Shown: positions 2,604 to 21,400 of the stretch, piece after piece | Layout: the number at the start of each line of letters is the position of its first letter | Position numbering within the stretch: the first letter of the stretch is position 1 | From: Draconibacterium orientale | GTDB taxonomy: Bacteria > Bacteroidota > Bacteroidia > Bacteroidales > FEN-979 | DNA: 34,293 nucleotides | Direction: 5' to 3' | Assembly: GCA_020719165.1 (NCBI GenBank) | Contig: DYQT01000010.1 | Location: 1-34,293, forward strand | The notes under the pieces: model-generated | Seen by the model: the letters and a program-made list of their open reading frames with translations, nothing else | Databases searched by the model: none | Told to the model about the DNA's origin: nothing | Program-made: the position numbers and the translations under genes

Positions 2604-4861
2604 ATGAAATATTTTATTATCATTTTTCTGACATTCATTTTTAAGACGATTTTGGCTTCAGAGCCGACATTCATAATCGGGGGGCAAGCATTTCCGGTTT
2701 CTGGTTTTCAAATAGTTATTTCAACACAACCCGGAGAGGTGGAATTGAAAGCTGCCGTTGAATTTCAGAAGTACCTCGGCTTAGTACGGGGATAACACTG
2801 CCCATTTCAGATGCATTTTCTGATAAGTTTCCATATTCTGTTATCATTACTTCGGCCAAACAAATACTGGTGTCTGCAGTAGCTAAAACTCCTGGCCCGG
2901 ATGGCTATGTCATCCAGATTCATCCTGGCAGCATCCTGATTGCCGGAGGTTCGCATAAGGGGACGCTTTACGGTGTTTATGAATTTTTGGAGAATTATTT
3001 GGGATGCCGGTTCTGGGCGCCAAACGCCGAATTTATCCCAAAGAAGGCTGAGATTATACTTCCGGTTGCAGATGTTGTTGACAATCCGGCATTTGGATGG
3101 CGTGAGGTGTACTATGCCGGAATGGATAACCAGGACTTTGCCGACAAGATGCGTACCGACCGTCATGCATGGAACGGAGGTGAGAACTGGGGTTTGTGGG
3201 TTCATACCATGTTTACCCTTGTCCCTCCTGAAGTGTACTTTGATGCACACCCGGAGTATTATGCGCTGATGGATGGAAAAAGGGCTAAAACACAACTTTG
3301 TCTCACCAATCCTGATGTACTCCAGATCGTTATCGATGCATTGAACGCAAAAATGAAAGAAAAACCTGAGGCAAAATACTGGTCGGTATCACAAATGGAC
3401 ACCTTTGGCGGTTGTGAATGTGATGGCTGTAAATATCTGAATGAACGCGAAGGATCAGCCTCCGGCTCTATGATCAGTTTTGTAAACCAGGTTGCGGCAG
3501 CCTTTCCCCAAAAGATAATTTCCACACTTGCCTATCAATATACCCGTAAGGCACCGGAATATATCAAACCGGCTTCCAACGTGAACATCATGCTTTGTAC
3601 CATTGAATGCGACCGGAGTAAACCCCTGGAAAGCGATACGACTCCTGGTTCTTTTACCGAAGATTTGCGAAACTGGTCGGCTATTGCCAACGACATCCTG
3701 GTGTGGGATTATGTAATCCAGTTTACCAACATGATCGGCCCGTTTCCGAATCTTCCGGTGTTGCAACCAAATATTCAACTATTTAAAAAATACCAGGTCG
3801 GCTCGGTATTTGAGCAGGGCTGTCGTGGCACTTACAGTGAAAACCAGGAGTTGCGGCAATACCTGCTCGCAAAATTGTTATGGAACCCCGGGCTGAATGT
3901 TGATTCGCTCACAAACCTGTTTCTTGAAGGTTATTATGGAAATGCAGGTTCAGCAATCGGGGAATATTTGCACAGCATGACGGATGCCCTGAAAAAATCG
4001 GGCAAAACCTTGTGGATTTATGGCAGCCCGATGCAGGAAACCGATGCCTTTCTGAGTCCGGAGGAGATCAGAAATTATACATTGCTGTTCAATAAGGCAG
4101 AACTTTCCGTAGCAGGCGATTCTACCTTGCAAGCCAGGGTGCGCAAGGCCAGGTTACCGCTTGATTATGCCATGATCGAAATATCAAAAAAGAACATTAC
4201 CGGCCCCGATGGGTTCATCGAACCTGCGGGAACAGGGTGGAAGGTTATGCCTGGCATGATTAACAGGGTGAATGAGTTTGTTGTACAAGCCGGCAAATCG
4301 GGTGTGAAAACAGTTCATGAACGGTTTTTACCTCCCGATGTTTATGGTCAGCAAACCATCGATTTTTTCAACAAAGCCTACACGCGGCATCTGGCAAAGG
4401 ACAAACCATATGCCCTCACTGCGCAGCCAGCAGCAAAATACAGCGCCGGAGGAGCCGGATCGCTTACCGACGGCAAACGTGGGTCGTCGAATTATTATGT
4501 TCTCTGGCAGGGCTTTGAGGAAAATGATTTTACAGCATTGGTTGACATGGAAAAACCTACGGAGATAAATTATGTGGGGGCGGAATTTTTGCAGGACCTT
4601 GCTTCCTGGATCTTTTATCCAGTGGAGGTGGTAATAAGTGTTTCAGATGACGGAATTAAATTCACAGAGGTGGCAGCCTTTGATTCGCTAGCGTGCCAGG
4701 ATCCGCTGTTGATAAGAGAAGTTGGCAAAATGATAAACCCGGTGACAGTCCGGTTTGTAAAATTTTATGCGCGCAATGCCGGAAAATGTCCCTCATGGCA
4801 TATCGGCCATGGTGGCAAGGCATGGCTGTTTGCCGATGAACTGATTGTTGACAGAAGATAG
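2604..4861 (+). CDS. Secreted DUF4838 protein, probable glycan-active, split by a frameshift
   Basis: Two ORF-track entries are one gene. The first (2604-2795) begins with a signal peptide (MKYFIIIFLTFIFKTILAS) and runs to EFQKYLG. The second continues one frame away as LSTGITLPISDAFSDKFPYS, then the intact body. A one-base loss near 2777-2784 explains the split, and the GTG at 2870 is not a genuine start. The body has an alpha/beta N-terminal domain resembling those preceding GH20/GH67 catalytic domains (GGSHKGTLYGVYEFLENYLG, CRFWAPNAEFIP), then the DUF4838 region (CLTNPDVLQIVIDAL, VSQMDTFGGCECDGC, VFEQGCRGTYSENQELRQYLL). The last ~130 residues look like a discoidin (F5/8C) carbohydrate-binding module. 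Enzymatic activity for DUF4838 is unproven. It converges on the GH38 gene, with 14 nt between the stops. If the frameshift is real, the gene is a pseudogene. Confidence 0.82.
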
Positions 4862-4875
4862 GATCTCTTTAACCT

Positions 4876-7800
4876 TTATTTTTGTTTTTCGAAAACATCA
4901 ACCTCCCTGAAATAGTAAGGCCCGTGGGCTGTGTTTTCACTTACCCACAGCAGGTAACGGTATTGTTTCGATTTTTCGGGCAACGGAATGATGGTATATA
5001 CTGCTTTACTGTCGCCCCAGATATCCTCAGGGGGAGCGATGGCAATGAAATTCCATCCTGATGTTGCGGGATCACCCACAACCGCGGGTTTTTTTTCGCC
5101 GGATGCGCCCCACAGCGAAAAGGATTGTCCGCCGCGCCGGGTGCTTTTCTCGGTGAAAATATGCATGCTGTCGAGTTCAATCTCCTGCTGCAGATCCAGT
5201 AAGATACGGCCCTCGCCTTTGTACGACCATTTGTCGTTGATGGAGTCGCCGGGCAGCAGGTCGTACATTCCGTCGTTGATCGAGGGAACATTCATCCCGC
5301 TGGCATATCCTGCCAAAGCAGAATCTGAATCGGTGAAATAATAGGATGCCGTAACACCATTGGGTTGATGCATGTCAGCATAGTCTTTCATGGTAAGCCG
5401 GGCAGGCAGCCGGGTCAGGTTACGATTGCTGTAAGCGGTTATTTTTGCTGCCTGAACCTGGTTGTCATCCACATAACTTTTTGCGAGGGTGAGCGTCATC
5501 TCCGGGCGCCCTGTGAAATCATCGTATAGGGGACTTACCGGTTGAACCTGATCGAAGGAGTTGTCGGCGACAGTGATCGCGAATATCTTAATGCTTTCAT
5601 TGTCTGGGAGTTGCAGGGTTTCGCTCGCCATGCCGGCTTCGAGTTTGTATTTGAACAGGTATGCATATTGGTAAGCAAGTGTTGTGGTATCGCGATGCAG
5701 ATGGGTTGCAAACCAGGCAACTTCATCACGTTTGATAAACCCTTTTTGCATTCCCGTCAAACGTCCGAATTTATCCCATATGCGGTTGTCAAATTGTCCG
5801 ATGTTGCCGCGATAGGCTCCAACCCGCAAGGTTGACTTGATATTCCCCACTTTGAATGTGCCGGATGTGTCGGTGAGCGCTGCGGCCAGGATATAAACGC
5901 TGTTGTAGTTTCCTGTTTTTGGCAGGCGTATTTTTTGACCCTTGCAGGCAATCACATTGTTTTTTCCATCCGCTTTCGGACCTAAATTGAATTGAATTCC
6001 ATCTACAGTGAGTGTTTCCGGAAACAGGGCGGCAGGAATACTGATGCCTTGCTGATCGAACTGTCCGTCTTTCCTGTTTTTGGCAAAGGTTACCACATCC
6101 TGATCATATACCAGAGGCAACTCGATGGAGGAGGGCGCTGATTGTTTTTCTGCAGGAGGTTCCAATTGGAGCGCAAAACTGCGCATGGTGAATCTCTTCA
6201 TATCGGTGAGCAACTTGCCGTTTTTGATGATAGCTTCCCCGATCAGCCGCTCCTGTCCATCCACCTCCCATGCTTTAATAATCTTGGATGCCAACGAAAC
6301 TTCAACATTCTGAATATCTTTCCCGATGAGTTCCTGCAGGCGGATCACCACCTCCTTACCGTTCTCTGCTTTTTTGATGGTGCGGATATCAACCTGAGGA
6401 GAGGATACACGGGCAAAGGAATAAACTTTTCCGAGGAAACCCGGATGCTGTGATGTCTGGAAAATCCTGAATGGTTGATTCAAGCCTCTTCCCTGCCATT
6501 CAGAAAGAGCGGTGCGCCAATCTCCTTTGTGGCTGTAAATGCCAAAGGTAACCTCGTGGATTCCCCAATCCTGGGTAGCCTGATCGTGGAAGAAATTGGT
6601 GGTGGGGGTAAATAGCAGTGTAAGCCGTATGGTTTTATCGTTTGGCTTGTCGGAACCGAATTTGCAGTCTTCAAAAATAGTGACCCCGTAATTGCCCGAT
6701 TTATCGGTGAGATCGATCCATTCGCGTGAAGGAACTTCATACTTTTTTTCATTGTTATTGCCCCGCTCGATCGTTCCAAAACCGAGATTATAGGTTGCCA
6801 TTTCATTGGCGGCAGTCAGCGGAAACGAAGCTTTCAGGCATACTCCGCTCGATTGCCAGTTGATGGTATTGCGAACGATCAGATTCTCTTTCCCGGCAAC
6901 AAGTTGAATATACTGGGTAAACACAGAATTCATTGCGTTGCGTTCAATTTTAACTGTCGCACGTACCGGCCCGTTTTCGAGAACAGTAATTTTTGCAGGT
7001 CCTTTGACGTATGCGAAGGGTGGTTTTTTGCGATCGTTCCAATCCATATTCCAGGCTGGCCAGTATTCCGGATGCTCTTTTTGGAATTCAAGCCGCATCG
7101 GACCAGAAAGCAACTCTTTGCCCAGTTTTTTATCGATGATGCTTGAAATGTCGCCTGAGGTGTTGATGGTAACCTTCAGGAATTCATTGTCAATGATATT
7201 GTTGGAGGCCGAAAGGGTTGATTTTCTCGGTGTTGATTTTTCGGTTGGACGAACATCGTAACAGGCCAGTCCAAACGAGGGAACGGTGCAGAGAAACAGG
7301 ATCCGGATTCTTTCTTTCGAGATGCGTAAAACCTGAACCGGCAGCTCAGTTTCGGATGAATCAAATACCTGCACTGCATCCGGCGCGCCCCCGGGAAAAG
7401 AAATTTCAGCTTCTGCTATATCTTTTCGGCTGATAGCCAGAGGATTGTAAACTACCAGGGTTATTCCTTTTCCCCGTGTATCCATCGCGCGGATAACTGC
7501 CCCGGCTGAACTTTCAAGACCTGCCGCGAACTTGTTAAGAGCCAGCACTTCATCATTCCACGCATATTCATAGGCTTTTGGGATCGACGTTCCGGGAAGA
7601 ATGTCGTGCATCTGGCTGCCCAGAACAAGCCACCAGGCTTCATGGAGCGAGCGGTGCTGGTATTTGATTCCACCGAGCCAATCGGCCATCACGGCTAATG
7701 GTTCGGCGGCTAAGGCAAGCTGCTCGTTTTTTCGATTCCAGCGTTTCATATAGGCCTGTGAGGTAAGTGACCCTGATGAGTGTTCTGTAAGAAGGAGGTC

Positions 7801-8742
7801 TCCAGAGTACGATGGCAGACGATTTTTTTGCTCCGTGGTGAGGTCGCGGAACAGCTGGTCTGATGAGCTTAGATAGACATTGATTTTTCTGTCGGGCTGG
7901 TCAATACTGCCAACAGCGTTTTTAACATCCTCCTCGCGCGGTGCTCCGCCTACATCACCTACTCCATAATACCGGTAGTCGGCGAAAACACCATACTTCT
8001 TGCCATTTTCCATTACCCGGTTAACCCAATAGGTTGTGGTGTCAAGTCTTTTTTTTATCTCACCGCCATAATCTGTGGCATTCAAGGCGGAGATGATGCC
8101 AATGCCGTCGGGTCCGATCCAGTTGCCAATGTTGAACGGAATACCTGCAGCTGATCCCCAGGAGAGCTTTTGGGTGGAAAAACCTTTTAATCCCGCGTGG
8201 GCCAATACCGAAGGAATATGTGCCTGGAATCCAAAACAGTCGGGCAGCAGAAAATCGACACTCTCTTTGCCGAATTCAGATCTGAAATAGCCATTGCCAT
8301 AAAGCACCTGACGCATTATCGCCTCCGGGGCCGGGATATTGGCATCGCATTCATCCACCGACGAACCTCCCACATTCCACCTTCCCTGGGATACATATTT
8401 TTTTAGTTTCTCAAACTTTTCAGGATAGTATTCCTTCATCATCTTATACCTGCGTGCCCCCGAGAAGGTAAAAATATAGGGTTGATATTTTTCTAACCGC
8501 TGAAAATTGTCATCCATGGTGTTTTTCAGGAATTCATTGATCGTTGTTTCATAGTCCCACCGCCATTCGGTATCCAGATGTGCATAACCAACCGTGTAAA
8601 GCACCGGGTCTTTCGAAAGATCATATTTCGGGATTGCCGGTAAAGTTGCATCCTGCTGTGCATTTGCAACATTCATGAACAGGACGAACAGCAGCGCAGC
8701 TGAAAGGGAACAAATTCGCATCATGACAATTGTTTTTTCCAT
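4876..8742 (-). CDS. Secreted GH38 alpha-mannosidase with C-terminal accessory domains
   Basis: GH38 enzymes are retaining alpha-mannosidases that need a divalent metal. From the ATG at 8742 the protein has 1288 residues and a signal peptide (MMRICSLSAALLFVLFMNVANA, cut near residue 28). The ORF-track start at 8772 is a TTG and is unlikely. The metal-site motif AHLDTEWRW (His55, Asp57) and LLPDCFGF, with Asp168 as the probable nucleophile, are present. A helical middle domain (about 340-420) and the beta-rich C-terminal half of GH38 (about 510-730) follow. Beyond the usual family length there is a jelly-roll-like segment and a final ~120 residues (GEGRILLDLQQEIELDSMHI to FREVDVFEKQK) resembling a discoidin-type binding domain. 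The first domain is typical of mannosidases, but specificity (N-glycan, mannan) cannot be read from sequence. It is divergent from the TlpA gene and convergent with the DUF4838 gene. Confidence 0.9.
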   Translation of the reverse strand: MEKTIVMMRICSLSAALLFVLFMNVANAQQDATLPAIPKYDLSKDPVLYTVGYAHLDTEWRWDYETTINEFLKNTMDDNFQRLEKYQPYIFTFSGARRYKMMKEYYPEKFEKLKKYVSQGRWNVGGSSVDECDANIPAPEAIMRQVLYGNGYFRSEFGKESVDFLLPDCFGFQAHIPSVLAHAGLKGFSTQKLSWGSAAGIPFNIGNWIGPDGIGIISALNATDYGGEIKKRLDTTTYWVNRVMENGKKYGVFADYRYYGVGDVGGAPREEDVKNAVGSIDQPDRKINVYLSSSDQLFRDLTTEQKNRLPSYSGDLLLTEHSSGSLTSQAYMKRWNRKNEQLALAAEPLAVMADWLGGIKYQHRSLHEAWWLVLGSQMHDILPGTSIPKAYEYAWNDEVLALNKFAAGLESSAGAVIRAMDTRGKGITLVVYNPLAISRKDIAEAEISFPGGAPDAVQVFDSSETELPVQVLRISKERIRILFLCTVPSFGLACYDVRPTEKSTPRKSTLSASNNIIDNEFLKVTINTSGDISSIIDKKLGKELLSGPMRLEFQKEHPEYWPAWNMDWNDRKKPPFAYVKGPAKITVLENGPVRATVKIERNAMNSVFTQYIQLVAGKENLIVRNTINWQSSGVCLKASFPLTAANEMATYNLGFGTIERGNNNEKKYEVPSREWIDLTDKSGNYGVTIFEDCKFGSDKPNDKTIRLTLLFTPTTNFFHDQATQDWGIHEVTFGIYSHKGDWRTALSEWQGRGLNQPFRIFQTSQHPGFLGKVYSFARVSSPQVDIRTIKKAENGKEVVIRLQELIGKDIQNVEVSLASKIIKAWEVDGQERLIGEAIIKNGKLLTDMKRFTMRSFALQLEPPAEKQSAPSSIELPLVYDQDVVTFAKNRKDGQFDQQGISIPAALFPETLTVDGIQFNLGPKADGKNNVIACKGQKIRLPKTGNYNSVYILAAALTDTSGTFKVGNIKSTLRVGAYRGNIGQFDNRIWDKFGRLTGMQKGFIKRDEVAWFATHLHRDTTTLAYQYAYLFKYKLEAGMASETLQLPDNESIKIFAITVADNSFDQVQPVSPLYDDFTGRPEMTLTLAKSYVDDNQVQAAKITAYSNRNLTRLPARLTMKDYADMHQPNGVTASYYFTDSDSALAGYASGMNVPSINDGMYDLLPGDSINDKWSYKGEGRILLDLQQEIELDSMHIFTEKSTRRGGQSFSLWGASGEKKPAVVGDPATSGWNFIAIAPPEDIWGDSKAVYTIIPLPEKSKQYRYLLWVSENTAHGPYYFREVDVFEKQK

Positions 8743-8760
8743 GTAAAAGTAGAGATTTAT

Positions 8761-8787
8761 TTTGTTTCGCAAAAAGCGTTACTTTTG
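8761..8787 (+). promoter_or_regulatory. Probable sigma-ABfr promoter for the first TlpA gene
   Basis: TACTTTTG (8780-8787) matches the Bacteroidetes -7 consensus TAnnTTTG. A TTTG at 8761-8764 could be the -33 element, but the 15-nt gap is shorter than usual. The -7 element overlaps the ORF-track TTG start at 8785, which argues for the ATG at 8818 as the true start. Confidence 0.45.
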
Positions 8788-8817
8788 TACAAACAAACCT
8801 TAAAAGAAAAGTATTTT

Positions 8818-9945
8818 ATGAAAAGAATCCTCTTCATGTTGTGCGTCAGTGCAGTTCTTACATCCTGCATGTCTGGAAAAGATCAGTTTAAAATTACCGG
8901 TAGTGTGAAAGGAGTGGATACCGGCATGGTTTTTCTTCAGAAATATGAGGTGGATCAATGGGTTGATACCGACTCTGCCAGGTTGGACAAGGGTGAATTT
9001 GTGTTTGTCGGAAAGGTAAGTGTTCCCGAGTTGGTTCAAATCGTCATGAAAGCCAACGAGGTTCTTTTACCGGTTTTTGTGGACAATGAAGCGATTAACC
9101 TTCAAATTTTTCCTGACAGCCTTGAGAAATCAACCGTGAAAGGCTCTGCTAACCATGACATCTATCAGCAATATGTTGCCATGAGTGAGGCCATCAATAT
9201 CAGGATGGACAAGGTTTATGACGAATGGAAGAAGGCAAAAGTTGCCGGAGACACCGTTGGAATGGAACGAAACGACTCCATCTCAAACTGCCTGGATACG
9301 GAGGTGAAGCAGCAACTTCTGGATTTTGTCAAAACCAACAATAAAACTGTGGTTTCTCCTTACCTGATCATGCGAAATAGTTGGCAATTTGAATTACCTG
9401 AGCTGGAAGAAGTAGTGACTGCCATGGATACCAGCCTGAATCAGTCTCAGTACATGCAGGCCCTGCAGAAACGCATTGCTGTTCTTCGCAGCGTGGCTGT
9501 TGGCCAAATTGCCCCTGATTTTACCATGAATGACTCGACCGGTCAGCCAATTACGCTTTCATCACTGAAGGGAAAGGTGTTGCTGGTCGATTTCTGGGCA
9601 TCGTGGTGCAGCCCATGCAGGGCCGAAAACCCCAATGTAGTGAAGGCATACCGGGCTTTTGGAAAGAAAGGATTTGACGTTCTCGGATGTTCCTTCGATC
9701 AGAACCGGGAAAAATGGATGAAGGCGGTTAAGCAGGACGAACTTACCTGGACCCAGGTTTCGGATTTGAAAGGTTGGGCAAATGAGGCCGGAAAACTTTA
9801 TGGTGTTAACTCCATCCCGGCAAACGTTCTTCTTGACAAGGATCAGAAAATTATTGCCCGGAATCTCCGCGGGGAAGAGCTGATTCAGAAGATTGAGGAG
9901 ATACTGGGACCGGCGTTGCAGGAGAAGAAGGCGAAAAATAAATAA
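8818..9945 (+). CDS. TlpA-family thiol-disulfide lipoprotein with DUF4369 domain
   Basis: The ATG at 8818 is chosen over the ORF-track TTG because it gives a lipoprotein signal MKRILFMLCVSAVLTSC (lipobox LTSC, Cys17) and leaves the promoter untranslated. The 375-residue protein has an N-terminal DUF4369 beta-domain (about 24-120: FKITGSVKGVDTGMVFLQK), a helical linker, and a C-terminal TlpA/AhpC-TSA thioredoxin domain (about 228-370) with WASWCSPCRAENP (active-site Cys264 and Cys267) and the cis-proline loop NSIPANVLLD. It is probably anchored in the envelope and reduces or isomerises disulfides of exported proteins. The substrate is unknown. DUF4369-TlpA proteins are abundant in Bacteroidota. 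It is followed after 10 nt by a second TlpA gene, so the two likely form an operon. Confidence 0.9.
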   Translation: MKRILFMLCVSAVLTSCMSGKDQFKITGSVKGVDTGMVFLQKYEVDQWVDTDSARLDKGEFVFVGKVSVPELVQIVMKANEVLLPVFVDNEAINLQIFPDSLEKSTVKGSANHDIYQQYVAMSEAINIRMDKVYDEWKKAKVAGDTVGMERNDSISNCLDTEVKQQLLDFVKTNNKTVVSPYLIMRNSWQFELPELEEVVTAMDTSLNQSQYMQALQKRIAVLRSVAVGQIAPDFTMNDSTGQPITLSSLKGKVLLVDFWASWCSPCRAENPNVVKAYRAFGKKGFDVLGCSFDQNREKWMKAVKQDELTWTQVSDLKGWANEAGKLYGVNSIPANVLLDKDQKIIARNLRGEELIQKIEEILGPALQEKKAKNK

Positions 9946-9955
9946 TTATCGATTC

Positions 9956-11323
9956 ATGAGAGTCTTATTGATTGTAGGTTTGTTCATGGCTTCCTGCCTT
10001 GTTCAGGCTCAGAATACCATTGACGGCACCATTCTGAAGTATGACGGAAAAAGGATTTTCCTGATGAGTATCTACGGGGAAAAAACAAAAGCCATCGATT
10101 CAACCATGTCTGACAGTGCTGGCCATTTTGTTTTCACGCTCAGCAACCGTCTACCGGGGATGTACCGGGTGCAATGGGCAAAAGATGGCAATGTTGATCT
10201 GGTTTGGAATCAGGAAAATGTAAAATTCATCACCACCTCGAAAAACGCTGACGACAGCCTGCAGATCATAACCTCCATTGAAAACAAGATCAACCAGGCC
10301 TATTCGAGGCTTGACCGGATCAATCAGTCGAAATTACAGTTGCTTATGCCTGTTGTTGACTTTTATCCGGTAAAGGATGGCTTCTACTTATCGGCTTTCC
10401 GTGAATTGGAGTATACCCAAAAGTCGCAACAGCAATACCTTGATTCTCTGGTGAGATTATATCCGAATTCCTTTGCCGTTCGTGTGGCAAAAGTGTATCA
10501 AACGCCGTTTATCCCGGCAGGGCTTGGCAAAGATGAGCGAATTGTATTTTTGAAGCAGCATTATTTCGATCAGGTCGATTTTTCAGATACTGCACTCCTT
10601 CGCAGCATGGCATTTGTGAATAAGGCCATTGCATACTTGTCTATTTACAGTAACAACCGCATGCCTCAGAAACAACTGGAGGCAGAATTCATCAAGGCTG
10701 TTACCCTGATGCTCAGCGCTGCATCCGTAAGTCCGGTGATCTATAAATTCTGGCTTGATTACCTTGTGGGCGGTTTTGACAAATACCATTTCGACGAAGT
10801 TATTACCTACATAGCCGATAACTTCCAGGATCCCTCTTCGTGTGAGGATCAGGAGAGGAAATCGGCCTTGCAGAAAAAACTGGATACCTTTAAAAAAATT
10901 GCCATCGGAAAAATCGCGCCCGAACTCATTGTGCCCGATGCAAAAGGAGCCCCGGTAAAGTTGTCGGCAATCAATTCGGAGTATACCCTGCTGGTTTTTT
11001 ATGCCACCACCTGTCCGCATTGCACAGCCATGACGCCAAGACTCAAAGAACTTTACGACAAACAGCAGCCAAAGCGTTTTGAGGTGATGTCGGTTTCAAT
11101 CGATACCAGCCGGGCCGAATGGACAAAATTTATCAGGGAGGAGAAACTGACCTGGATAAACGTTTCTGACCTGAAAGGGTTTAATGGTAAGTCGGCCGAC
11201 GATTACAACATTTATGCTACTCCAACCATGTTCCTGCTCGACCGGGAAAAGAAAATCCTGTCCAAACCCATCTCCCTGATGGAGCTTGAACAGGCTTTTC
11301 GTGATCATAACCTGATTAATTAA
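9956..11323 (+). CDS. Secreted TlpA-like thioredoxin with DUF4369-like N-terminus
   Basis: The ORF-track entry starts at 9893 inside the upstream gene in another frame. Its first 21 residues are an Arg-rich artefact (CRRRRRK). The ATG at 9956 gives MRVLLIVGLFMASCLVQAQN, a good signal peptide. Cleavage after VQA is likely; the Cys at 14 lacks a convincing lipobox. The 455-residue protein has a DUF4369-like beta domain (TIDGTILKYDGKRIFLMS), a long helical middle (about 100-310), and a thioredoxin domain with FYATTCPHCTAMTP (Cys353 and Cys356) and a cis-Pro loop YATPTMFLL. The CPHC centre, unlike the CSPC of its neighbour, resembles DsbA-type centres and may have a different redox potential. It lies 10 nt after the first TlpA gene and is about 80 residues longer, with a different middle domain, so this is not a simple recent duplication. 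Confidence 0.88.
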   Translation: MRVLLIVGLFMASCLVQAQNTIDGTILKYDGKRIFLMSIYGEKTKAIDSTMSDSAGHFVFTLSNRLPGMYRVQWAKDGNVDLVWNQENVKFITTSKNADDSLQIITSIENKINQAYSRLDRINQSKLQLLMPVVDFYPVKDGFYLSAFRELEYTQKSQQQYLDSLVRLYPNSFAVRVAKVYQTPFIPAGLGKDERIVFLKQHYFDQVDFSDTALLRSMAFVNKAIAYLSIYSNNRMPQKQLEAEFIKAVTLMLSAASVSPVIYKFWLDYLVGGFDKYHFDEVITYIADNFQDPSSCEDQERKSALQKKLDTFKKIAIGKIAPELIVPDAKGAPVKLSAINSEYTLLVFYATTCPHCTAMTPRLKELYDKQQPKRFEVMSVSIDTSRAEWTKFIREEKLTWINVSDLKGFNGKSADDYNIYATPTMFLLDREKKILSKPISLMELEQAFRDHNLIN

Positions 11324-11379
11324 AATTACGAATTACGAATTACGAATTACGATTTTCAAAAATAAGTTTCATCGTAATT
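11324..11379. repeat. Heptamer tandem repeat (AATTACG x4) with potential hairpin between convergent genes
   Basis: Four exact AATTACG units (11324-11351) start at the base after the TlpA TAA. The last unit plus one base (AATTACGA, 11345-11352) is the reverse complement of TCGTAATT at 11372-11379, giving an 8-bp stem with a 19-nt loop between two convergent genes. The stem reaches into the stop codon of the minus-strand gene. It is AT-rich, so a terminator role is possible but not strong. Confidence 0.85.
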
Positions 11380-13561
11380 AATATTTTATGATTCTTGCTG
11401 TGCCGGAAGTTCCTTCCGATACCAGCCGGATGATGTAGATGCCATTTGGTTTTTCCTGAAGTGAAAATTCATGTTTCAGCTTCCCTTCAACCTGGCGGGT
11501 GGCCATCCTTTCACCACGCATGTCATAGATTTCAATATTGGCAGTTTGCAACACTTCCCTGCCTATAATTTCAATGGTAAAGGAGCCTGTAGTCGGGTTA
11601 GGGTAAACCCGGAAAAGGTTGCCTGATGCGGTTTGCGGCATCGGCTCAACTATCGGGCCGGCCAGGGATTCTTCCTTAAACGCCGCAGGTAAAGTATGGG
11701 GAACGGCATTGCAATAAAAACAATCGGATGAGATATACCCATGCAGGTAACCTCCCTGGGCCGTAGCCGCTCCCGGAAGAATTCTGATGGCTTTTCCTGC
11801 GATCAGTATTGCTGTTCCGCCGGTTTGCACAAGAAAACTATTGCCGCTTCCCGGCACAATCAGTGTATCTGTTGCATCTGAGCAGAGCGTCTGTCCTCCG
11901 GGTACCGTCACGCTTTCAAGAATTCGGTTTGAAGGAGGCAAGGCGTAAACCGTAACCGCTTGACCGATGGTATCGCTGCAGCCATTGGCATCGGTTACGG
12001 TTACCGTATAGTCTCCGCTGGCATTCACCGTGATTGCGGGAGAAGTTGCAGCATTGGACCAGCCGTAGCTTGTTCCGCCCGATGCTGTCAGGATGACTGA
12101 TTCTCCCTCGCAAATAGTCGTAGGGCCGCCTGCGGTGATCAGAGGCACGGGAAGTGGGTTCAATGTTACCAGAAAGGTGTTTTCTACCCCGCTGCCACAT
12201 GGATTTGTCCCTGATGCCGAGATAAAACCGGTTTCCGCGTTGAGCGCATAGTTAACCGTAATCGTGCGGCTGTTGGCACCAGACACGATGGTTGCACCTG
12301 CCGGGAGTGACCATGAATATCCCGTGGCATTGGTAATGGCCGGAATGGAATATACCACCCCTTTCGTTCCCTTGCAAAGCTGGTTGATTCCTGTGATGGC
12401 TCTGGCAGGATAAGGATGGCAGTTTGTTACCTCGACCGAATCGCTGACAATGCTGCTGAAATTGCCAAGGGTGTCCCGGAAGTCTACGTTCATCAGGTGT
12501 TTGCCCAGAGGCAGGTAGGGAAGTTCAAGCGAGTCAAGCAGGATCACATCACTTAAAGGCTGTGAAAGTGATATCACCCGCATGTTTGGCGGGTGGTTGT
12601 CGAACCAGAACCGGTATCCCGAAATGGCATTGTTTGCAATATTTGCTGTGCCGGTTTTGTAAAAATAGCTGGATGATACCACGCTGGAAAGGTCACTGCT
12701 CTGGAAACGCACGTGTGCTTTGTGAAGTCCGGGCTGGAGAGCTGCTGCATTAATATTGGCCACCACGTCGGCTGCAGGTTGATTTTCAACTGGTACAGTA
12801 ACTTTTCCGGCCGGGTTGTCGTCGAACCAATACTCATAGGATATCAGGTTATTTTGATTTCCGGAGCCATGTTTGTAAAACATGTCCGACTGCGTTGAAC
12901 ACCAGGTGCCGGTGGTGTTTTTGAACCGGATGTGAAAAGCGTGAAATCCCAGGGAGAGTGATGATGCTGTAATAACTTCTGAAAGATCAAGCATTTGAGT
13001 GTTAGCGACATTCACAGCAGTTTTGGCATCGTTGTCGTTGTCGAACCAATATTCGTATCCTGAAATCAGCATCTCGGGTACGATCACGAAATAGGCTGAA
13101 CTTGTGGAACTAAAAGTGCCTGTAACATCCCTGAACCGGATGTGAAACGTGTTCATTCCCGGGCTCAGTGCAGCGGTTGAGATGGCAGAACTCAGGTCAA
13201 GCAGGGTTGTACTGCTCACACCGACCGCGGTTTTGCCGGCATAATCGCTATTGAACCAGTATTCATATCCATTGATCAGGGTGGAGACCGGATAAAAGAA
13301 AAAGGAGGAACTTACCGGGCTATACCTGAGAGAGTCATCCTGAAAGCGGATGTTGAATCGGTGAAAACCAACGGGAAACGGGGACACATTTACCGATGTG
13401 TTCAGGTCCAGCGTTGTTGCCGGACTAACTGACTGGCTGATTCTCCCGGCATCATTGTCATCGAACCAATACTCGTATCCGATGATTTTTGGTGCCTGGG
13501 CTACAATAATTTGCAGCGGGATAACCAGGAGGCCTGTAATGAGGAGTAATATTTTTCTCAT
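11378..13561 (-). CDS. Type IX-secreted surface protein with five ~70-residue repeats, PKD/Ig-like domains and sorting tail
   Basis: The 727-residue product begins with a signal peptide (MRKILLLITGLLVIPLQIIVAQ). Five tandem repeats follow, each opening with a YEYWF-type motif at residues 29, 99, 169, 242 and 316 (YRFWF in the last). The consensus is roughly GYEYWFDxDxAGK, then LDLS, then L-x-x-G-x-H-x-x-x-I-R-F and a serine-rich YF strand. Next come a PKD-like domain (about 385-465, ITGINQLCKGTKGVVYS) and an Ig-like domain (about 470-540, TTICEGESVILTASGG), then a spacer. The last ~75 residues (FRVYPNPTTGSFTIEI to ARIIKY) are a type A type IX sorting domain, removed during export through the SprA machinery encoded nearby. 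The repeat function is unknown; adhesion or scaffolding is a guess. It lies 6 nt downstream of the beta-helix gene in one operon. Confidence 0.87.
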   Translation of the reverse strand: MRKILLLITGLLVIPLQIIVAQAPKIIGYEYWFDDNDAGRISQSVSPATTLDLNTSVNVSPFPVGFHRFNIRFQDDSLRYSPVSSSFFFYPVSTLINGYEYWFNSDYAGKTAVGVSSTTLLDLSSAISTAALSPGMNTFHIRFRDVTGTFSSTSSAYFVIVPEMLISGYEYWFDNDNDAKTAVNVANTQMLDLSEVITASSLSLGFHAFHIRFKNTTGTWCSTQSDMFYKHGSGNQNNLISYEYWFDDNPAGKVTVPVENQPAADVVANINAAALQPGLHKAHVRFQSSDLSSVVSSSYFYKTGTANIANNAISGYRFWFDNHPPNMRVISLSQPLSDVILLDSLELPYLPLGKHLMNVDFRDTLGNFSSIVSDSVEVTNCHPYPARAITGINQLCKGTKGVVYSIPAITNATGYSWSLPAGATIVSGANSRTITVNYALNAETGFISASGTNPCGSGVENTFLVTLNPLPVPLITAGGPTTICEGESVILTASGGTSYGWSNAATSPAITVNASGDYTVTVTDANGCSDTIGQAVTVYALPPSNRILESVTVPGGQTLCSDATDTLIVPGSGNSFLVQTGGTAILIAGKAIRILPGAATAQGGYLHGYISSDCFYCNAVPHTLPAAFKEESLAGPIVEPMPQTASGNLFRVYPNPTTGSFTIEIIGREVLQTANIEIYDMRGERMATRQVEGKLKHEFSLQEKPNGIYIIRLVSEGTSGTARIIKY
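12428..13483 (-). repeat. Five tandem coding repeats (about 210-222 bp each)
   Basis: The repeat starts are spaced 70, 70, 73 and 74 codons apart. At DNA level the most similar part is the stretch encoding YEYWF (plus-strand forms like TCGAACCAATACTC), found near 12820, 13048, 13252 and 13460, with a diverged copy near 12602. Divergence elsewhere suggests old duplications. Confidence 0.85.
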
Positions 13562-13567
13562 TGTGGA

Positions 13568-14638
13568 CTATTTTTCCTGGGCAGCAACCTTGAAATGGAT
13601 GTTGAGGGTGCCGTTTGGACTTGTCGAGCCCGACACATATTTGAACTGGATATGGGGGTTCACTGGCAGCATGCCATCTTTAAAAGGTTCGCCGCCGTAA
13701 ATTCCAACATCGGTTCCGTCACTGCCGCCATTGATGCCCGGGCTGCCTGCAATAAGATGGTAATTGTGATGAATATCATAAGTATTACCGCTCTGGCTGG
13801 TATAGATTTGCTCATTAGGCACATTTTCATGGTTCCCCGACAAGTTGCCAAAACCGTTCAGGTTTGCCACACAGTAGCCTAAATAATCGTAGTAAAATCC
13901 AATAGGTCCGTTGAAGAGATTATAATAATAATTGTTGTTAGTACAATAAATTGTATTCCAGCCATAATAGGCGACGCATGGATTTTTAAAAATGTTGTTG
14001 GAAAATGTTGAATTTTTTACATAAAAATTAAGCGTTCTATTGCTTCCCCACAAGAAGTCATTGTGCAAGAATGTGGCGCCGTAAAAGTAGTTCAGCTGGC
14101 CTTCCAGAATGTTATTCCTGAAACTGGCATTGGAATGACCGCCATAAACATGACCGCGAATGATGTTTTCACGGAAAAGGAAAGAGGATGTGGTGGTGTC
14201 ACTACCATTGAATGAAAGGCTGATGGTATTCAGATTACAGCGCGAAACAAAATAGGATGAAACATGCTGATCGGCATGGCTGGTGCCAAATGTGAGCGTT
14301 CCGGTGAGCATGAACCCCTGGAGGCTTCCGTTGTCGGCCCCCGACACGATGGTGATGTTCCCTGTGAGGAAGGTAGTTCCGGTGGCATAGCAGGAGTCGG
14401 GGTATATTCCGGCACCTATGATGTGAACCCCTTTGTCGATGATCAGGTTGCCGATGTCCATCAGCGCAGTTCCCGGCAGGTAGATATAATCACCATTTGC
14501 CGAATGAGCAACCGCTGAATCCAGCCGGGTAAAAAATTCACTTCCGCCTGATAAATGGTTAACGGCGATCAATTCCTGGGCGCTAAGGGAATTGATTCCC
14601 CAAAAGAAAATGGTTATGAATGTAATCAGTTTTTTCAT
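13568..14638 (-). CDS. Secreted right-handed beta-helix-like protein
   Basis: The 356-residue product has a signal peptide (MKKLITFITIFFWGINSLSAQ). The body is rich in short Asn/Gly/Ser strands typical of parallel beta-helix folds: YIYLPGTALMDIGNLIIDKG, GVHIIGAGIY, SYFVSRCNLNTISLSFNGS, NASFRNNILEGQLNYFYGA. The pattern resembles NosD/pectate-lyase-like proteins, but no catalytic residues can be assigned. The C-terminus (NPHIQFKYVSGSTSPNGTLN) is not a recognisable type IX sorting tail, so export beyond the periplasm is unclear. It is the first gene of a two-gene operon with the five-repeat type IX cargo protein (6-nt gap), driven by the promoter at 14704-14733. The pairing suggests a joint surface structure, but this is inference. 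Confidence 0.8.
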   Translation of the reverse strand: MKKLITFITIFFWGINSLSAQELIAVNHLSGGSEFFTRLDSAVAHSANGDYIYLPGTALMDIGNLIIDKGVHIIGAGIYPDSCYATGTTFLTGNITIVSGADNGSLQGFMLTGTLTFGTSHADQHVSSYFVSRCNLNTISLSFNGSDTTTSSFLFRENIIRGHVYGGHSNASFRNNILEGQLNYFYGATFLHNDFLWGSNRTLNFYVKNSTFSNNIFKNPCVAYYGWNTIYCTNNNYYYNLFNGPIGFYYDYLGYCVANLNGFGNLSGNHENVPNEQIYTSQSGNTYDIHHNYHLIAGSPGINGGSDGTDVGIYGGEPFKDGMLPVNPHIQFKYVSGSTSPNGTLNIHFKVAAQEK

Positions 14639-14703: not shown

Positions 14704-14733
14704 CAAAGATAGAACAGAAAATGAAAATACAAA
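14704..14733 (-). promoter_or_regulatory. Sigma-ABfr promoter for the beta-helix/five-repeat operon
   Basis: On the minus strand TTTG (14733-14730), 18 nt, then TATCTTTG (14711-14704), a full match to TTTG-N(17-21)-TAnnTTTG. Transcription would start near 14698, leaving a leader of about 60 nt. Confidence 0.7.
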
Positions 14734-14870: not shown

Positions 14871-15455
14871 ATGTATGAGTATATCCAAGGTAAGCTGGTA
14901 GAAAGAAACCCTGCTTATGCGGTTGTTGATGTGAATGGAATCGGCTATTTGCTGAACATATCCATACACACCTATGCGCAGCTTCGCGACGACGAGAGGT
15001 GTATTTTGTACACCCATCTCGTAGTTCGGGAAGACGACATGCTGCTATACGGATTTGCAGATGTTGGAGAGCGGGAACTTTTTCGGCAACTTATCAGTGT
15101 TTCAGGGGTAGGAGTAAACACGGCACGCATCATTTTATCGTCTCTTTCCCCGATAGAGGTGGTAAGAGCCATTGCTGAAGGCAATGCCGGTTTGCTGCAG
15201 CAGATCAAGGGGATCGGGGCGAAAACAGCTCAACGCATCATCATTGACCTGAAAGATAAGGTATCGCGGGAGTTAATTCCCAACGAAAAATCAGGAATTT
15301 CACACAATACAAAGAAGGAAGAAGCGTTATCAGGATTGATCATTCTGGGCTTCCCAAAGATGCTTGCTGATAAGGCATTGAACAAAATCATCGAATCGGA
15401 AGGAACGGGCTTGACAGCGGAACAACTGATCAAACATGCGCTTAAGGTTTTATAG
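14871..15455 (+). CDS. ruvA: Holliday junction branch migration protein RuvA
   Basis: RuvA binds four-way DNA junctions as a tetramer and loads the RuvB motor. The 194-residue product has the full family length. It begins with the OB-fold domain (MYEYIQGKLVERNPAYAVVDVNGIGYLLNIS) and passes through the acidic pin region around REDDMLLYGF. Two helix-hairpin-helix motifs follow (LISVSGVGVNTARIILS and LLQQIKGIGAKTAQRIIIDL). It ends in the domain III that contacts RuvB (EEALSGLIILGF, LTAEQLIKHALKVL). It sits directly upstream of sprA; ruvA-sprA-gcvH is, to my knowledge, a common gene order in Bacteroidota. The start ATG is the only sensible one given the promoter and leader. Confidence 0.97.
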   Translation: MYEYIQGKLVERNPAYAVVDVNGIGYLLNISIHTYAQLRDDERCILYTHLVVREDDMLLYGFADVGERELFRQLISVSGVGVNTARIILSSLSPIEVVRAIAEGNAGLLQQIKGIGAKTAQRIIIDLKDKVSRELIPNEKSGISHNTKKEEALSGLIILGFPKMLADKALNKIIESEGTGLTAEQLIKHALKVL

Positions 15456-15476
15456 CGTGATGGTTCCAAAGTAATA

Positions 15477-18400
15477 ATGACCTTGCAGGACTTAGTGAAG
15501 AGAAACAATTTATACACCCTTATATGCCTGGCCGTCCTGGTTATTTGTCGTATCCCGGTTTTTTCCGGAGAATCGGCAGGTAATTACATGGTTTCCATGC
15601 CCGGGACATCTCCCCCCGACAGTTTGTACAGAGGTGATACCACACTTCGGTATCCGTTTGTTGATGAAACAGTTATGCCTGGATCAGGAAGCGAGAATCC
15701 AATTTATCTCAAAAATCCATCCAACATTAAAACGAATGTTGAATATGATCCGGTTACCCGCCAGTATTACTACAATTATAAAATAGGAGAAACGGTTTAC
15801 CGGATTCCAACAACCCTGTCGTTCGACGAATTTCAGAATCAGGACATGCAGTCGATGATCAACCAATACTGGAAGGAGCGATCGGAAGCGGCGACGATGG
15901 ACAATGCAACAGGGATCATTCCCAAGATCCGCATCCCCGGGAAGGTGTTTGAAACCATTTTTGGTAACAACACGGTTGATATTCGCCCGCAGGGATCGGC
16001 AGAGATCGACTTTGGCATCGTTTCCAACAGGCGCGACGATCCCATGCTCAGTACCCGTCAGCGCCGACAGACAAACTTCGACTTCAACGAGAAGATACAG
16101 ATGAATGTGGTGGCCAAAATCGGAGATAAAATCGAATTCAAAATTAATTACAACACCGAAGCCACATTCGATTTCGAAAACAAATTGAAGCTCAGGTACG
16201 AAGGCAAAGAAGACGATATTATTCAATTGATTGAAGCGGGCGACGTTAACCTGCCGCTCAGCACAAATCTGATCAGAGGAACCGAGAGCCTCTTTGGCGT
16301 CAAAACAAAATTGAGGTTTGGAAGGGTAACCGTTACCGCACTCTATTCCCAGCAAAAAAGCGAGACTAAAAACATTGTCGTGCAGGGCAATGCTCAAACC
16401 CAAAGATTCAGAATACGGGCCGATGAATATGAAGAGAACAAGCATTTCTTTATCGGACAAAACTTTCGCGACACTTACCGTGACGGTCTCAAGAAGCTGC
16501 CGGTAATCACCTCCAATGTGAATATTCTGAAAATTGAGGTCTGGGCAACCAATATCGGCGCGGCAGTGACGGAGAACCGAAATATTGTGGCGTTCATGGA
16601 TCTTGGTGAGTACAACCCTTACAACACACGATTGTTTACAGGGAACCCCGCGCGCAGATTTCCGTCGAACAACTCGAACGACTTGTTCCAGGTTCTCATG
16701 CCGAATGCCTATGATTCAGGACAGGTGCGCAGCATCAATACTGTGAGCGGTTACCTGAAGGGGGCTCCTTTTTATATGATTGCCGGCGAGGATTTTGAAA
16801 AGGTTGAAAGTGCCCGTAAATTGTTACCATCAGAATACAGTTTCAATCCGAAGCTGGGGTTTATCTCCTTGAACACCGCATTAAATTCCGATCAAATTCT
16901 GGCTGTGGCATACCAGTATCAGGTTGTAGGCGATACCACGGTTCATCAGGTGGGTGAATTTTCCGACCAGGGAATTGCCTCACCAAAAAGTCTGGTGGTG
17001 AAGTTGTTGAAGAGCACTTCGTTGAATACCAGAGTTCCTACATGGAAACTGATGATGAAAAATGTTTATGCACTGGGTGCATACCAGTTGCAGGGGAACG
17101 ATTTTACCATGAACATTTTATACTCTGGAAATGCCAACGGCGTGCCAACAGCTTATATTACAGAAGGAAGAATAAAGGGTGTTCCTCTTTTACGCGTGCT
17201 GAACCTGGATAATGTAAATCAGCAATTCAATCCTCCCGGCGATGGCATGTTCGACTTCATTGACAATGCCGTAACCCAGGGAGGAACCATCCAGGCATCG
17301 AATGGACGAATATTCTTTACGGTGCTCGAGCCGTTTGGCAAGGATCTGCGCGATTCAATTTACGACCCCGCCGACCCAAAAGGATCTCTGGAACTGGCTA
17401 ATAAATACTGTTTTGATTCGCTGTACACCATGACCAAGTCGAATGCAAGGCAGTATCCTGATAAAAATAAATTCGTTTTAGACGGTTTTTACAAATCCGC
17501 TGCCGGTGCAGAAATTTCGCTCAATGCACTGAATGTGCCGGCCGGTTCGGTCAGGGTAACAGCTGGTGGAATCCAATTGATGGAAAATCAGGATTATACC
17601 GTTGATTATACCCTTGGCCGGGTCAGAATCATCAATGAGGGAATCCTTAATTCGGGTACGGCGATCAACATTTCACTGGAGAGCAACGAAATGTTCAATG
17701 TTCAAACCAAGCGGTTGATGGGTGCGCACATCGATTACAAAATAAATAAGGATTTCGTTATCGGAGCCACTATTTTGAATCTGAATGAGCGTCCGTTGAC
17801 ACAAAAGGTAAACTATGGTGATGAACCGATGTCGAACACGATGTGGGGAATGAATCTTACCTATCGAACCCAATCGCGGCTGATAACCCGGTTTGTTGAT
17901 GCCCTTCCGCTCATTACAACCAAAGCCCCGTCGTCCATTGCCGTGGATGTGGAATTTGCCCAATTCATCCCCGGTCATTCCAAAGCAATCGGGCGTTCAG
18001 GAACAACTTATATCGATGATTTTGAAGGTGCTCAATCAACCATCGACATGAAATCGATGTCAAACTGGTATCTGGCAAGTACCCCGCAAGGACAAACAAC
18101 TCCAAACATGTTCCCCGAAGCTGCTCCGGGGCCTCCCACACTTTCTTATGGGTTTAACCGGTCAAAGCTCGGCTGGTACATCATCGATCCGTTGTTCTAT
18201 GATAAAAATACAAATCTTTTACCCCCCAATGTATCTAACCAGGAATTGGCAAATCATTATGTGCGGCAGGTATGGGAAACCGAGATCTTCCCAAACAAAC
18301 AGCCATTGAATGGTGTTCCTGTGAACCTGTCGGTACTTAATCTGGCCTATTATCCTTCGGAGCGGGGATCGTACAACTTCGATGTATCCCCAACCTCAGT

Positions 18401-21400
18401 GTCGAAGGGCTTGAACGCCGACGGAACCCTGGCCAATCCCGAAACCCGGTGGGGAGGCGTAATGCGCAAGATCGAATCAACAGATTTCGATGCCACCAAC
18501 ATTCAGTATATTGAATTCTGGATGATGGACCCTTTCATTTACGATACCTTGAACAGCGGCCAGCTCTATTTTAACCTTGGAGATATATCGGAGGATATTT
18601 TAAGGGATGGGCGAAAAAGTTTCGAAAACGGTTTACCAACCACTGCGCTTGTAACAGAGGTTGACACTACTATTTGGGGCCGTGTGCCACAATTGCAGGC
18701 ACTTGTGGATGCATTTGACAACACCCCTGCCACCCGGCCATTTCAGGATGTGGGATATGACGGATTGACGGATGTTGATGAAATATCTTTCTTTGACACA
18801 TCCTACGTCGCGAAGGTCAGAAACACCTTCGGCGCAAATTCGCAGGCATATATAAATGCATCTTCCGACCCCTCATCTGATGACTTTCATTACTTCAGAG
18901 GGACCGATTATGATGAAAATCCGAATTTCAGCAGTGTGTTGAACCGTTATAAAAAATACAACGGCCCTGAAGGAAACAGCCCAACCACCGAGCAAAGCGT
19001 TGAAACCTACCCGACCATTGCAACTACTCTTCCCAATATGGAAGATATTAACAAAGACAATACATTGAGTGAGGCTGAGCGGTATTACCAATATGTTGTC
19101 CAGTTGCGCCGCGACCAGATGAAGACAGGGTCGAACTACATCACCAATATCTACCATGCCACCGATATTCCCCTGGCCGATGGTACCCGAGGCAATGTTA
19201 ACTGGTATCAGTTTAAAATACCCATCCGCACCCCTGATCAGATTATCGGAACCATCAACGATTTCACCTCCATCCGTTTTATGAGGGTGTTTTTCAAGAA
19301 CTTTCAACGTCCGGTTGTTTGCCGTTTTGCTACACTTGAATTGTCGCGCGGCGAATGGCGGAAATATAACTACAGTCTGCTTTCTCCCGGCGAATATATT
19401 CCCAATGCCGAGCAGAATCAAACCCAGTTCGACATAGCAGCGGTGAGTCTTGAAGAAAACGGCAGCAAACAACCCATTCCATATGTTATGCCTCCGGGGA
19501 TTGAACGCGAAACCAACTGGGGTTCGACCAACATGCAAAAGCTCAATGAACAGTCGATGTCGTTCAAAGTATGCAACCTGGTTGACGGGGATGCCCGGGC
19601 AGCTTATAAAAATGCAGAATTTGATTTCCGTCAGTTTAAACGGCTCCAGATGTATGTTCATGCTGAACAATCTGTTCGCAACCAAAATTTAAAACCAGGC
19701 GATCTTACAATCATCATGCGCATTGGATCCGATTTTACAGAGAACTACTACGAATATGAAATCCCGCTGAACTTTACCGCCTGGGGAACTCAGGCCAACA
19801 ATCCTGACGCTATCTGGCCCGAAAGCAATGCATTCGACATTGACCTTGAACGGTTGGTCAGGGTGAAATATAACCGGCTGGTTGCCATGCGCGACAAGGG
19901 GATTGAACTGACCTCTTCAACACCCTATTCGGAGTTTGACGGGAAAAATAAAATTACCGTTGTGGGTTCTCCTACCATCAGCGATGTTCGCGCCATCATG
20001 GTCGGCGTGAGAAATCCCAAAAAAAGCACCCAAACATCCGATGACGATGGCCAATCGAAATGTGCCGAAATATGGGTGGATGAACTCAGGCTCTCGGAGT
20101 TCAATAAAAATGGAGGATTTGCCGCCACTGCCAGGGTGGCCGTTGAACTTGCCGATCTTGGCCGGATCCAGCTTACCGGAACATACAGCAGTTCGGGGTT
20201 TGGCACATTGGAACAGAAGCAAACCCAGCGTCCGATGGAGGCTGTGACGACTTTTGGATTCGATACCGATCTGGAACTGGGTAAATTTTTCCCGGCCAAA
20301 ACGGGAATTCGCATTCCGATGCACTTTGACTATGCCATGATGCTTACCAGTCCGAAATATGACCCGCTGAATCCGGACTTGTATTTATCTGATGTAATCG
20401 ATGCCTTTGATTCAAAACAACAGAAAGATTCGATCAAACAAATCACGCAGGGATATACCCAGACCAAAAACTTTAACCTGATGAATGTCAGGAAAGACAG
20501 AACCGGGACGAAAAAACCAAAAATATACGATATCGAGAACTTCAACGCAAGTTATGCCTATTCCGAAATTTTTCACCGGGATGTTGATGTCGCGTATGAT
20601 CTGAAGAAGAAATACACGGGCGGATTCGGTTATAACTATTCAACCCAGCCAAAAAACGTGGTACCGTTTCAGCGCGTCAAAGCATTAAATAAATCGAAGG
20701 CTTTTGCCTTAATCAAGGATTTTAATTTCTATTACCTGCCCAAAGCTTTTTCTTTTCGGACCGATATGAACCGTGAGTTCAATCAGCGGCAATTCAGAAA
20801 TAAAAGCAGGGCCATTGTGCCGATGGAAACTTTCTACATCAAACGGTGGGACTGGAGCAGGACGTTCGATTTGAAATATGATTTTGCGAAATCACTTCGG
20901 CTGACGCTTGTTGCCAACACCCAGGCGTTTGTGAACGAACCTCCCGGGCAAATCGACCGTTCAAACCGGGATCAGATATGGAGCGAGATACTCTCCTTCG
21001 GAACCAAAAACAATTATAACCAGGCGCTGAACGTTAGCTGGGATGTACCGATCGGTAAAATTCCGATGCTTGATTTCATCACCCTTCAGGCCGGATATCT
21101 GACAACCTACCGATGGATGGGTGCTCCCATCTCAATCCAGGAACAGTATGGAAATACAATTGAAAATGCCAATGTACAAACACTGAACGGTGGGTTTAAC
21201 TTGGTAACCCTTTACAACAAAATACCCTATCTGAAAAGAATAAACCAGGCATCAACCAACCAGCGTGGAAATAAGCCGGAACCACCGAAAAACAAAAACC
21301 TGGACAAGCAGGACAGCCTGAAACTTTTACCAAACCGACCGAAAATCGGCAAGATCTTGCTTGAAGGAACCGTTCGTTTTTTGATGGCTGTGCGGACTGC

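Follow-up and report, generated by a model that had tools for sequence, protein, structure and literature searches.

Why would a secreted protein without a visible sorting domain be encoded directly ahead of one that carries the sorting signal of the type IX secretion system (T9SS)? This question is raised by two genes on the reverse strand of a 34,293-nucleotide stretch of DNA from Draconibacterium orientale (contig DYQT01000010.1, positions 1 to 34,293), hereafter called the window. The first, gene 1, encodes a protein with a predicted right-handed beta-helix, and the second, gene 2, encodes a protein built from tandem repeats. The original prediction, made from the sequence of the window, had described this pair of open reading frames (ORFs) as a beta-helix protein without a sorting tail followed by a protein with five repeats, PKD/immunoglobulin (Ig)-like domains and a type IX tail, and this description proved correct. 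On the evidence presented below, the pair appears to form a widespread two-part device of the cell surface that has no name so far, with one protein possibly taking its partner along as it leaves the cell, and the putative complex is best read as a surface adhesin or ligand-display device.

The gene pair recurs across Bacteroidota

The original prediction also offered the impression that similar pairs recur in Bacteroidota, and proposed to search with a profile of the repeats and to score how often a beta-helix gene lies within 50 nucleotides upstream. We scanned 84,980 species genomes with YEYWF-type peptide seeds. This survey yielded 63 loci, all Bacteroidota by title (Bacteroidales, Flavobacteriales, Chitinophagaceae, Mucilaginibacter, Labilibaculum, Flavobacterium paronense, Winogradskyella, Prevotella, Bacteroides and others), and an iterative repeat profile detected mostly two to seven repeats per protein. 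A gene of the beta-helix family resides directly upstream on the same strand in all 60 of the 60 repeat proteins that have room upstream, a test that is not fully independent because the beta-helix profile was built partly from the same loci. The characteristic ending of the beta-helix proteins, 'DGTdiGIYGG..P..dG..P.NPHI..k.I...T...G.L.I.IkV.AQ', was apparent before any profile existed. The gap between the two genes ranges from -17 to 98 nucleotides and is 50 nucleotides or less in 56 of the 60.

A second survey covered 247 Bacteroidia genomes drawn irrespective of the pair, in which the repeat profile and the beta-helix profile were searched separately. The repeat profile matched in 45 genomes, and 75 clear beta-helix genes (E below 1e-18) were present in 47 of the 247. 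Repeats are located within 400 nucleotides downstream of 48 of these genes, and a further 13 are followed by another beta-helix gene. Among the remaining 14, 12 have repeats that are more distant, part of the same chain or below the strength needed for the listing, one (in G115) sits at a contig end as the last of a tandem of three beta-helix genes, and one (in G268) stands alone. Altogether, 71 of the 75 genes lead to repeats, either directly or via a second beta-helix gene; three, all in G115, cannot be judged, and one is alone. In the opposite direction, the listing shows an upstream beta-helix gene for 53 of 58 repeat clusters. Four of the other five (L135 in G204, L139 in G206, L140 in G055 and L143 in G253) do have one, and the fifth (in G096) begins at a contig edge.

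Both L139 and L140 are divergent repeat loci whose upstream beta-helix proteins, of 430-450 residues, escaped the profile, and the survey therefore undercounts. These proteins end in '...NFFPI..GAAKVY...' and their partners carry EYYFDTDPG-type repeats; from these sequences, they likely form a second subfamily that mostly escapes the profiles. Weaker beta-helix matches of 410-460 residues were also considered as a second subfamily and were rejected as an out-group: the 17 loci with distant beta-helix similarity only (mostly 410-460 residues, NosD-like and similar) have no downstream repeat gene, and they provide a negative control. Because the iterative profile detects the repeats and the pairing in dozens of loci, neither is, judged from sequence, a matter of chance, and the recurrence suspected at the outset is strongly supported.

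Only one partner carries a sorting domain

The product of gene 2 begins with a Sec signal peptide, MRKILLLITGLLVIPLQIIVAQA, recognised by reading the sequence rather than with a dedicated predictor, and the mature protein starts a few residues ahead of repeat 1. At its other end is a type A T9SS C-terminal domain (CTD), matched by TIGR04183 (E 1e-12, 47.7 bits against a cut-off of 23) and by PF18962 (E 4e-12, 46.6 bits against a cut-off of 27). The repeats, spaced by 70-74 residues, have no family match in Pfam, NCBIfam or PDB sequences, in agreement with the original prediction that they fit no family that could be named. Specifically, Y_Y_Y (PF07495) does not match the repeat protein of the window, and its matches to the repeats of relatives are sporadic and weak (3 of 51 repeats, best 2e-4). 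What was found is thus a repeat outside the characterised families searched and a recurrent association with beta-helix genes. In the family listing, the last repeat of the array is usually of the Y(R/K)(Y/F)W type outside the Prevotella group whereas earlier repeats are YEYW, and the array therefore has a defined end. When both proteins were folded as one concatenated chain (a read-through of the in-frame TAG between the genes, used as a modelling device only), each repeat was predicted to form a small beta-sandwich resembling fibronectin type III (FnIII), Ig, C3 and grappling-hook (GhpA) arrays.

Repeat proteins of the family are modular and can include PKD, Ig_7, CUB, HYDIN/choice-of-anchor D, chitobiase C-terminal and cadherin-like domains. 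In four loci (L044, L046, L053 and L067), an N-terminal alpha/beta-hydrolase (PGAP1/LCAT-like) and HYDIN- or CUB-type domains are fused before the repeats, and the beta-helix gene still lies upstream. T9SS tails among 37 repeat proteins are of type A (TIGR04183) in 21, type B in one and type C in one. Several repeat proteins from Prevotella and Bacteroidaceae end in short G-x-Y...K/R tails, which resemble the short CTDs described in Prevotella intermedia (PMC11969387). In the window, the region ahead of and including the tail (11378-11945, reverse strand; residues ~539-726 of the 727) reads GGQTLCSDATDTL...GGYLHGYI...C and then the T9SS tail. From residue 539 on, it recurs at ~31-37% identity in about ten further proteins of the same genome and is, on these alignments, a reused pre-CTD stretch without a Pfam name.

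The beta-helix proteins, by comparison, carry no T9SS sorting domain of type A, B or C in any of 39 family members at E <= 0.1. No lipobox cysteine was found at the signal peptide cleavage site across the family; two lipobox pattern matches were rejected because their cysteines reside inside the hydrophobic core. Neither Pfam nor NCBIfam contains a match to gene 1 at E values up to 1, and its family is not recognised by PDB sequence search. AlphaFold2, supplied with 39 sequences, predicts with high confidence that the gene 1 protein forms a right-handed beta-helix ending in a two-stranded hairpin (strands 329-339 and 345-352), with a predicted local distance difference test (pLDDT) of 87 and a predicted template modelling score (pTM) of 0.86.

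Among solved structures, the best Foldseek match to this model is 7dmk, the polysaccharide lyase family 6 (PL6) alginate lyase BcAlyPL6 (E 2e-4, template modelling score 0.50 over the query), followed by AlgE epimerases and phage tail fibres or tailspikes, and no viral structure model reaches E 0.001. Both this ranking and the hydrolase-like domains of some repeat partners would suit an enzyme, in which case gene 1 would encode a PL6/AlgE-type polysaccharide lyase or epimerase and the repeat protein would act as its surface anchor and substrate-binding scaffold. However, we consider this explanation unlikely given how conservation is distributed. Within the family, mean pairwise identity drops from 0.35 in the first turns to 0.22 in the middle and is higher again around DGT..GIYGG (0.41) and in the tail (0.37). 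The middle turns, which are the active-site region of beta-helix enzymes, contain no strongly conserved charged residue (the best are R133 at 0.50 and H192 at 0.60), and the charged positions that are well conserved (D50, K69, D81 and D307) lie close to the ends. Moreover, matches of family members to Pfam pectate-lyase/beta-helix families are few and weak. This profile fits ends that would serve docking or folding and a variable shaft, rather than a conserved enzyme.

Natural fusions and a lone copy bear on the proposed docking part

Two genomes encode natural fusions in which a beta-helix, repeats and a T9SS tail follow one another, in this order, within one chain. One fusion (L161 in G192, 1558 residues) has six AEYFFD-type repeats, further domains and a TIGR04183 tail (E 3e-12), and the other (L126 in G052, ~1233 residues) has one repeat, further domains and a TIGR04183 tail (E 3e-7). 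Each carries a tail-like stretch at the junction. In simple split pairs, the beta-helix protein stops just past the hairpin, and only a few residues of the mature repeat protein precede repeat 1. Both ends coincide with the fusion junction, and the two mature chains are therefore collinear with the fusion. The hairpin tail is conserved in paired members and absent from the sole lone member (G268:C375, L132:804-1814), which has no repeat partner and is followed by sizeable ORFs only on the opposite strand. In this single case, the profile match ends at 297 of 334 and the sequence stops early.

Two further explanations can be weighed against these observations. The beta-helix protein might be a dedicated periplasmic chaperone or docking factor that helps to export the repeat protein without being displayed itself. 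Its plain signal peptide, the absence of a T9SS tail and a lipobox, and the strict gene partnership are all compatible with such a role, but in two genomes the T9SS cargo chain includes the beta-helix, and neither a variable middle with conserved ends nor two or three tandem copies per locus is expected of a chaperone. We regard this role as improbable, to the same degree as an enzymatic one. Still less probable, in our estimate, is that the two proteins are exported independently and share only their regulation, each being a surface or secreted protein in its own right within a common adhesion or nutrient programme. Although operon order alone is compatible with co-regulation, and contact between the two products is itself a prediction, the near-perfect adjacency across very divergent Bacteroidota, the fusions and the lone copy's loss of its tail exceed what co-regulation would produce.

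A proposed surface complex and the points that weigh against it

We lean, by a modest measure, towards a two-component, T9SS-dependent surface complex whose repeats supply a stalk and docking platform, whose beta-helix supplies a variable ligand face, and which leaves the cell by piggyback export. In such a complex, the Ig/FnIII-like repeats of the gene 2 product would form a rod, and the type A CTD would provide for its export and its anchoring to the surface. The beta-helix would dock on the repeat array through its conserved C-terminal beta-hairpin, and its variable middle turns could form a face for a ligand, most likely a glycan or another surface, comparable to tailspike- or PL6-like beta-helices but without catalysis. 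Because the beta-helix protein has an ordinary signal peptide only and no CTD of its own, it would most likely assemble with the gene 2 product in the periplasm and exit the cell attached to it. The T9SS recognises cargo through the CTD, which is bound to PorV within the SprA pore, and the cargo exits CTD-first (PMC10994853); a partner attached to the cargo body could therefore follow. More tentatively, and with some doubt, we suggest that this amounts to two-partner export by the T9SS, wherein an already folded beta-helix without a sorting domain is carried through the SprA translocon while bound by its hairpin to the CTD-bearing Ig-array partner. Loci with two or three tandem beta-helix genes ahead of one repeat gene are not rare, and such an arrangement would let one anchor display several ligand modules. 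The term 'surface module' used in the original prediction thus stands for the repeat protein by virtue of its T9SS tail, whereas the beta-helix partner can be placed at the surface only as a putative passenger.

Several observations count against this proposal. The concatenated chain was modelled with a pTM of 0.58, and no interface is readable from the model. Some Prevotella-type repeat proteins are without a recognised T9SS tail. In seven members, the repeats are internal, after an N-terminal part of 700-800 residues (an alpha/beta-hydrolase-like domain in the members scanned), and docking would therefore not always be end to end. The distances of the partners correlate (r 0.76 overall, 0.61 for distant pairs), in favour of the proposal, but this correlation could stem from shared descent. 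Finally, co-occurrence with the T9SS was dropped as evidence: SprA is found in 43 of 44 pair-bearing genomes, which is uninformative because it is found in 240 of the 247 surveyed genomes anyway.

Features and neighbours of the pair in the window

The two genes are separated by 6 nucleotides. The Bacteroidota-type promoter pattern TTTG-N18-TANNTTTG has four matches in the window, where ~1 is expected, and one of these is directly 5' of gene 1. Positions of all features are collected in Table 1.

Table 1. Features of the beta-helix/repeat gene pair, in window positions
Feature	Position	Strand	Basis
Gene 1, 356-residue secreted right-handed beta-helix protein (predicted fold), no T9SS tail	13568-14638	-	ORF call, library searches, fold prediction, family alignment
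Gene 1 type I signal peptide (residues 1-21, ...SLSAQ) without a lipobox	14576-14638	-	Read from sequence; model helix 2-13; same form family-wide
Gene 1 beta-helix core, residues 24-325, conserved ends and variable middle turns	13664-14569	-	Alignment, fold model, Foldseek
Gene 1 C-terminal tail NPHIQFK...IHFKVAAQEK, residues 326-356, predicted beta-hairpin	13571-13663	-	Alignment and model
Gene 2, 727-residue repeat protein with type A T9SS tail	11378-13561	-	ORF call, Pfam and NCBIfam matches
Gene 2 repeat 1, residues 29-92, YEYWF	13286-13477	-	Repeat profile
Gene 2 repeat 2, residues 99-162, YEYWF	13076-13267	-	Repeat profile
Gene 2 repeat 3, residues 169-232, YEYWF	12866-13057	-	Repeat profile
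Gene 2 repeat 4, residues 242-304, YEYWF	12650-12838	-	Repeat profile
Gene 2 repeat 5, residues 316-379, YRFWF, distinct last-repeat type	12425-12616	-	Repeat profile and family listing
Gene 2 PKD_6 domain, residues 385-463	12173-12409	-	Pfam, E 2e-21
Gene 2 Ig-like domain, Ig_7/PKD type, residues 476-540	11942-12136	-	E 0.027, below curated cut-off
Gene 2 type A T9SS C-terminal sorting domain, residues 652-725	11387-11608	-	Por_Secre_tail PF18962 and TIGR04183
Bacteroidota-type promoter match TTTG-N18-TATCTTTG	14704-14733	-	Upstream of beta-helix gene; pattern match only

The divergent neighbours of the pair are ruvA and sprA, the latter the T9SS translocon gene itself (14871-22730, forward strand). 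The same arrangement occurs in at least five close relatives (G001-G005, by contig coordinates) and is absent in other lineages, and for this reason it looks like clade-level synteny. On the other side, a perfect 7-nucleotide tandem repeat (AATTACG, 4.1 copies; 11324-11352) separates the repeat gene from the thioredoxin-like gene that converges on it. Farther along (2870-11323), a gene for a DUF4838 protein with an F5/8 type C domain adjoins one for a secreted GH38 alpha-mannosidase on the opposite strand, and two genes for DUF4369/thioredoxin-like proteins come after them; these are possible glycan-use genes. A second, shorter copy of the pair is present in the same genome (G000:C151:51730-53953, L136), with a beta-helix protein of ~339 residues and a repeat protein of ~400-420 residues that has three repeats and a TIGR04183 tail.

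Significance and comparison with known systems

About a fifth of the sampled Bacteroidia genomes carry members of the beta-helix family, and the carrier lineages are from freshwater, marine, soil, rumen and gut settings. Despite this wide spread, neither protein family is recognised by the sequence libraries, and we found no description of the pair in literature on the repeat signature, CTD-less T9SS cargo, piggyback export or the product names. Among T9SS surface proteins, the pair represents a new variant with two components; it would be a new kind of secretion only if piggyback export were shown. If the beta-helix does ride out with its partner, lists of T9SS cargo based on CTDs overlook one class of exported protein. 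For the putative docking part, ready-made tests are available in the fusions found in nature and in the lone copy without a tail.

Gene 2 resembles known type A T9SS cargo (TIGR04183/PF18962; gingipains, RemZ) in its sorting domain and its modular, PKD/Ig-rich body. However, known cargo has its own CTD whereas the strictly paired partner here has none, and the repeat module is absent from every library searched. Tandem small beta-sandwich repeats are shared with Y_Y_Y (PF07495), with other FnIII/Ig-like repeats and with the Aureispira grappling-hook protein GhpA, but the gene 2 family is set apart by its YEYWF signature, its distinct last repeat and its beta-helix partner. A right-handed beta-helix protein of Porphyromonas gingivalis, PG0236, has been predicted as a T9SS component (PMC5053529), and we claim no kinship between it and gene 1. 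The predicted fold of gene 1 is that of PL6 alginate lyases and AlgE mannuronan epimerases. The gene 1 family differs from these enzymes in that no conserved catalytic charged cluster was seen (residues were not superposed singly), and in its conserved hairpin tail and tandem-Ig neighbour gene. Weak profile similarity also links it to NosD-like and other widespread Bacteroidia beta-helix proteins, which form the out-group without downstream repeat genes and whose sequences, where read, have no NPHI-type tail.

A parallel in organisation is found in two-partner secretion (type Vb) and split adhesins, where two adjacent genes together yield a surface beta-helix structure, as would be the case for this pair. 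In contrast to the type Vb arrangement, gene 2 does not encode a TpsB-like transporter, and export of the beta-helix would instead proceed via the T9SS together with a tagged partner.

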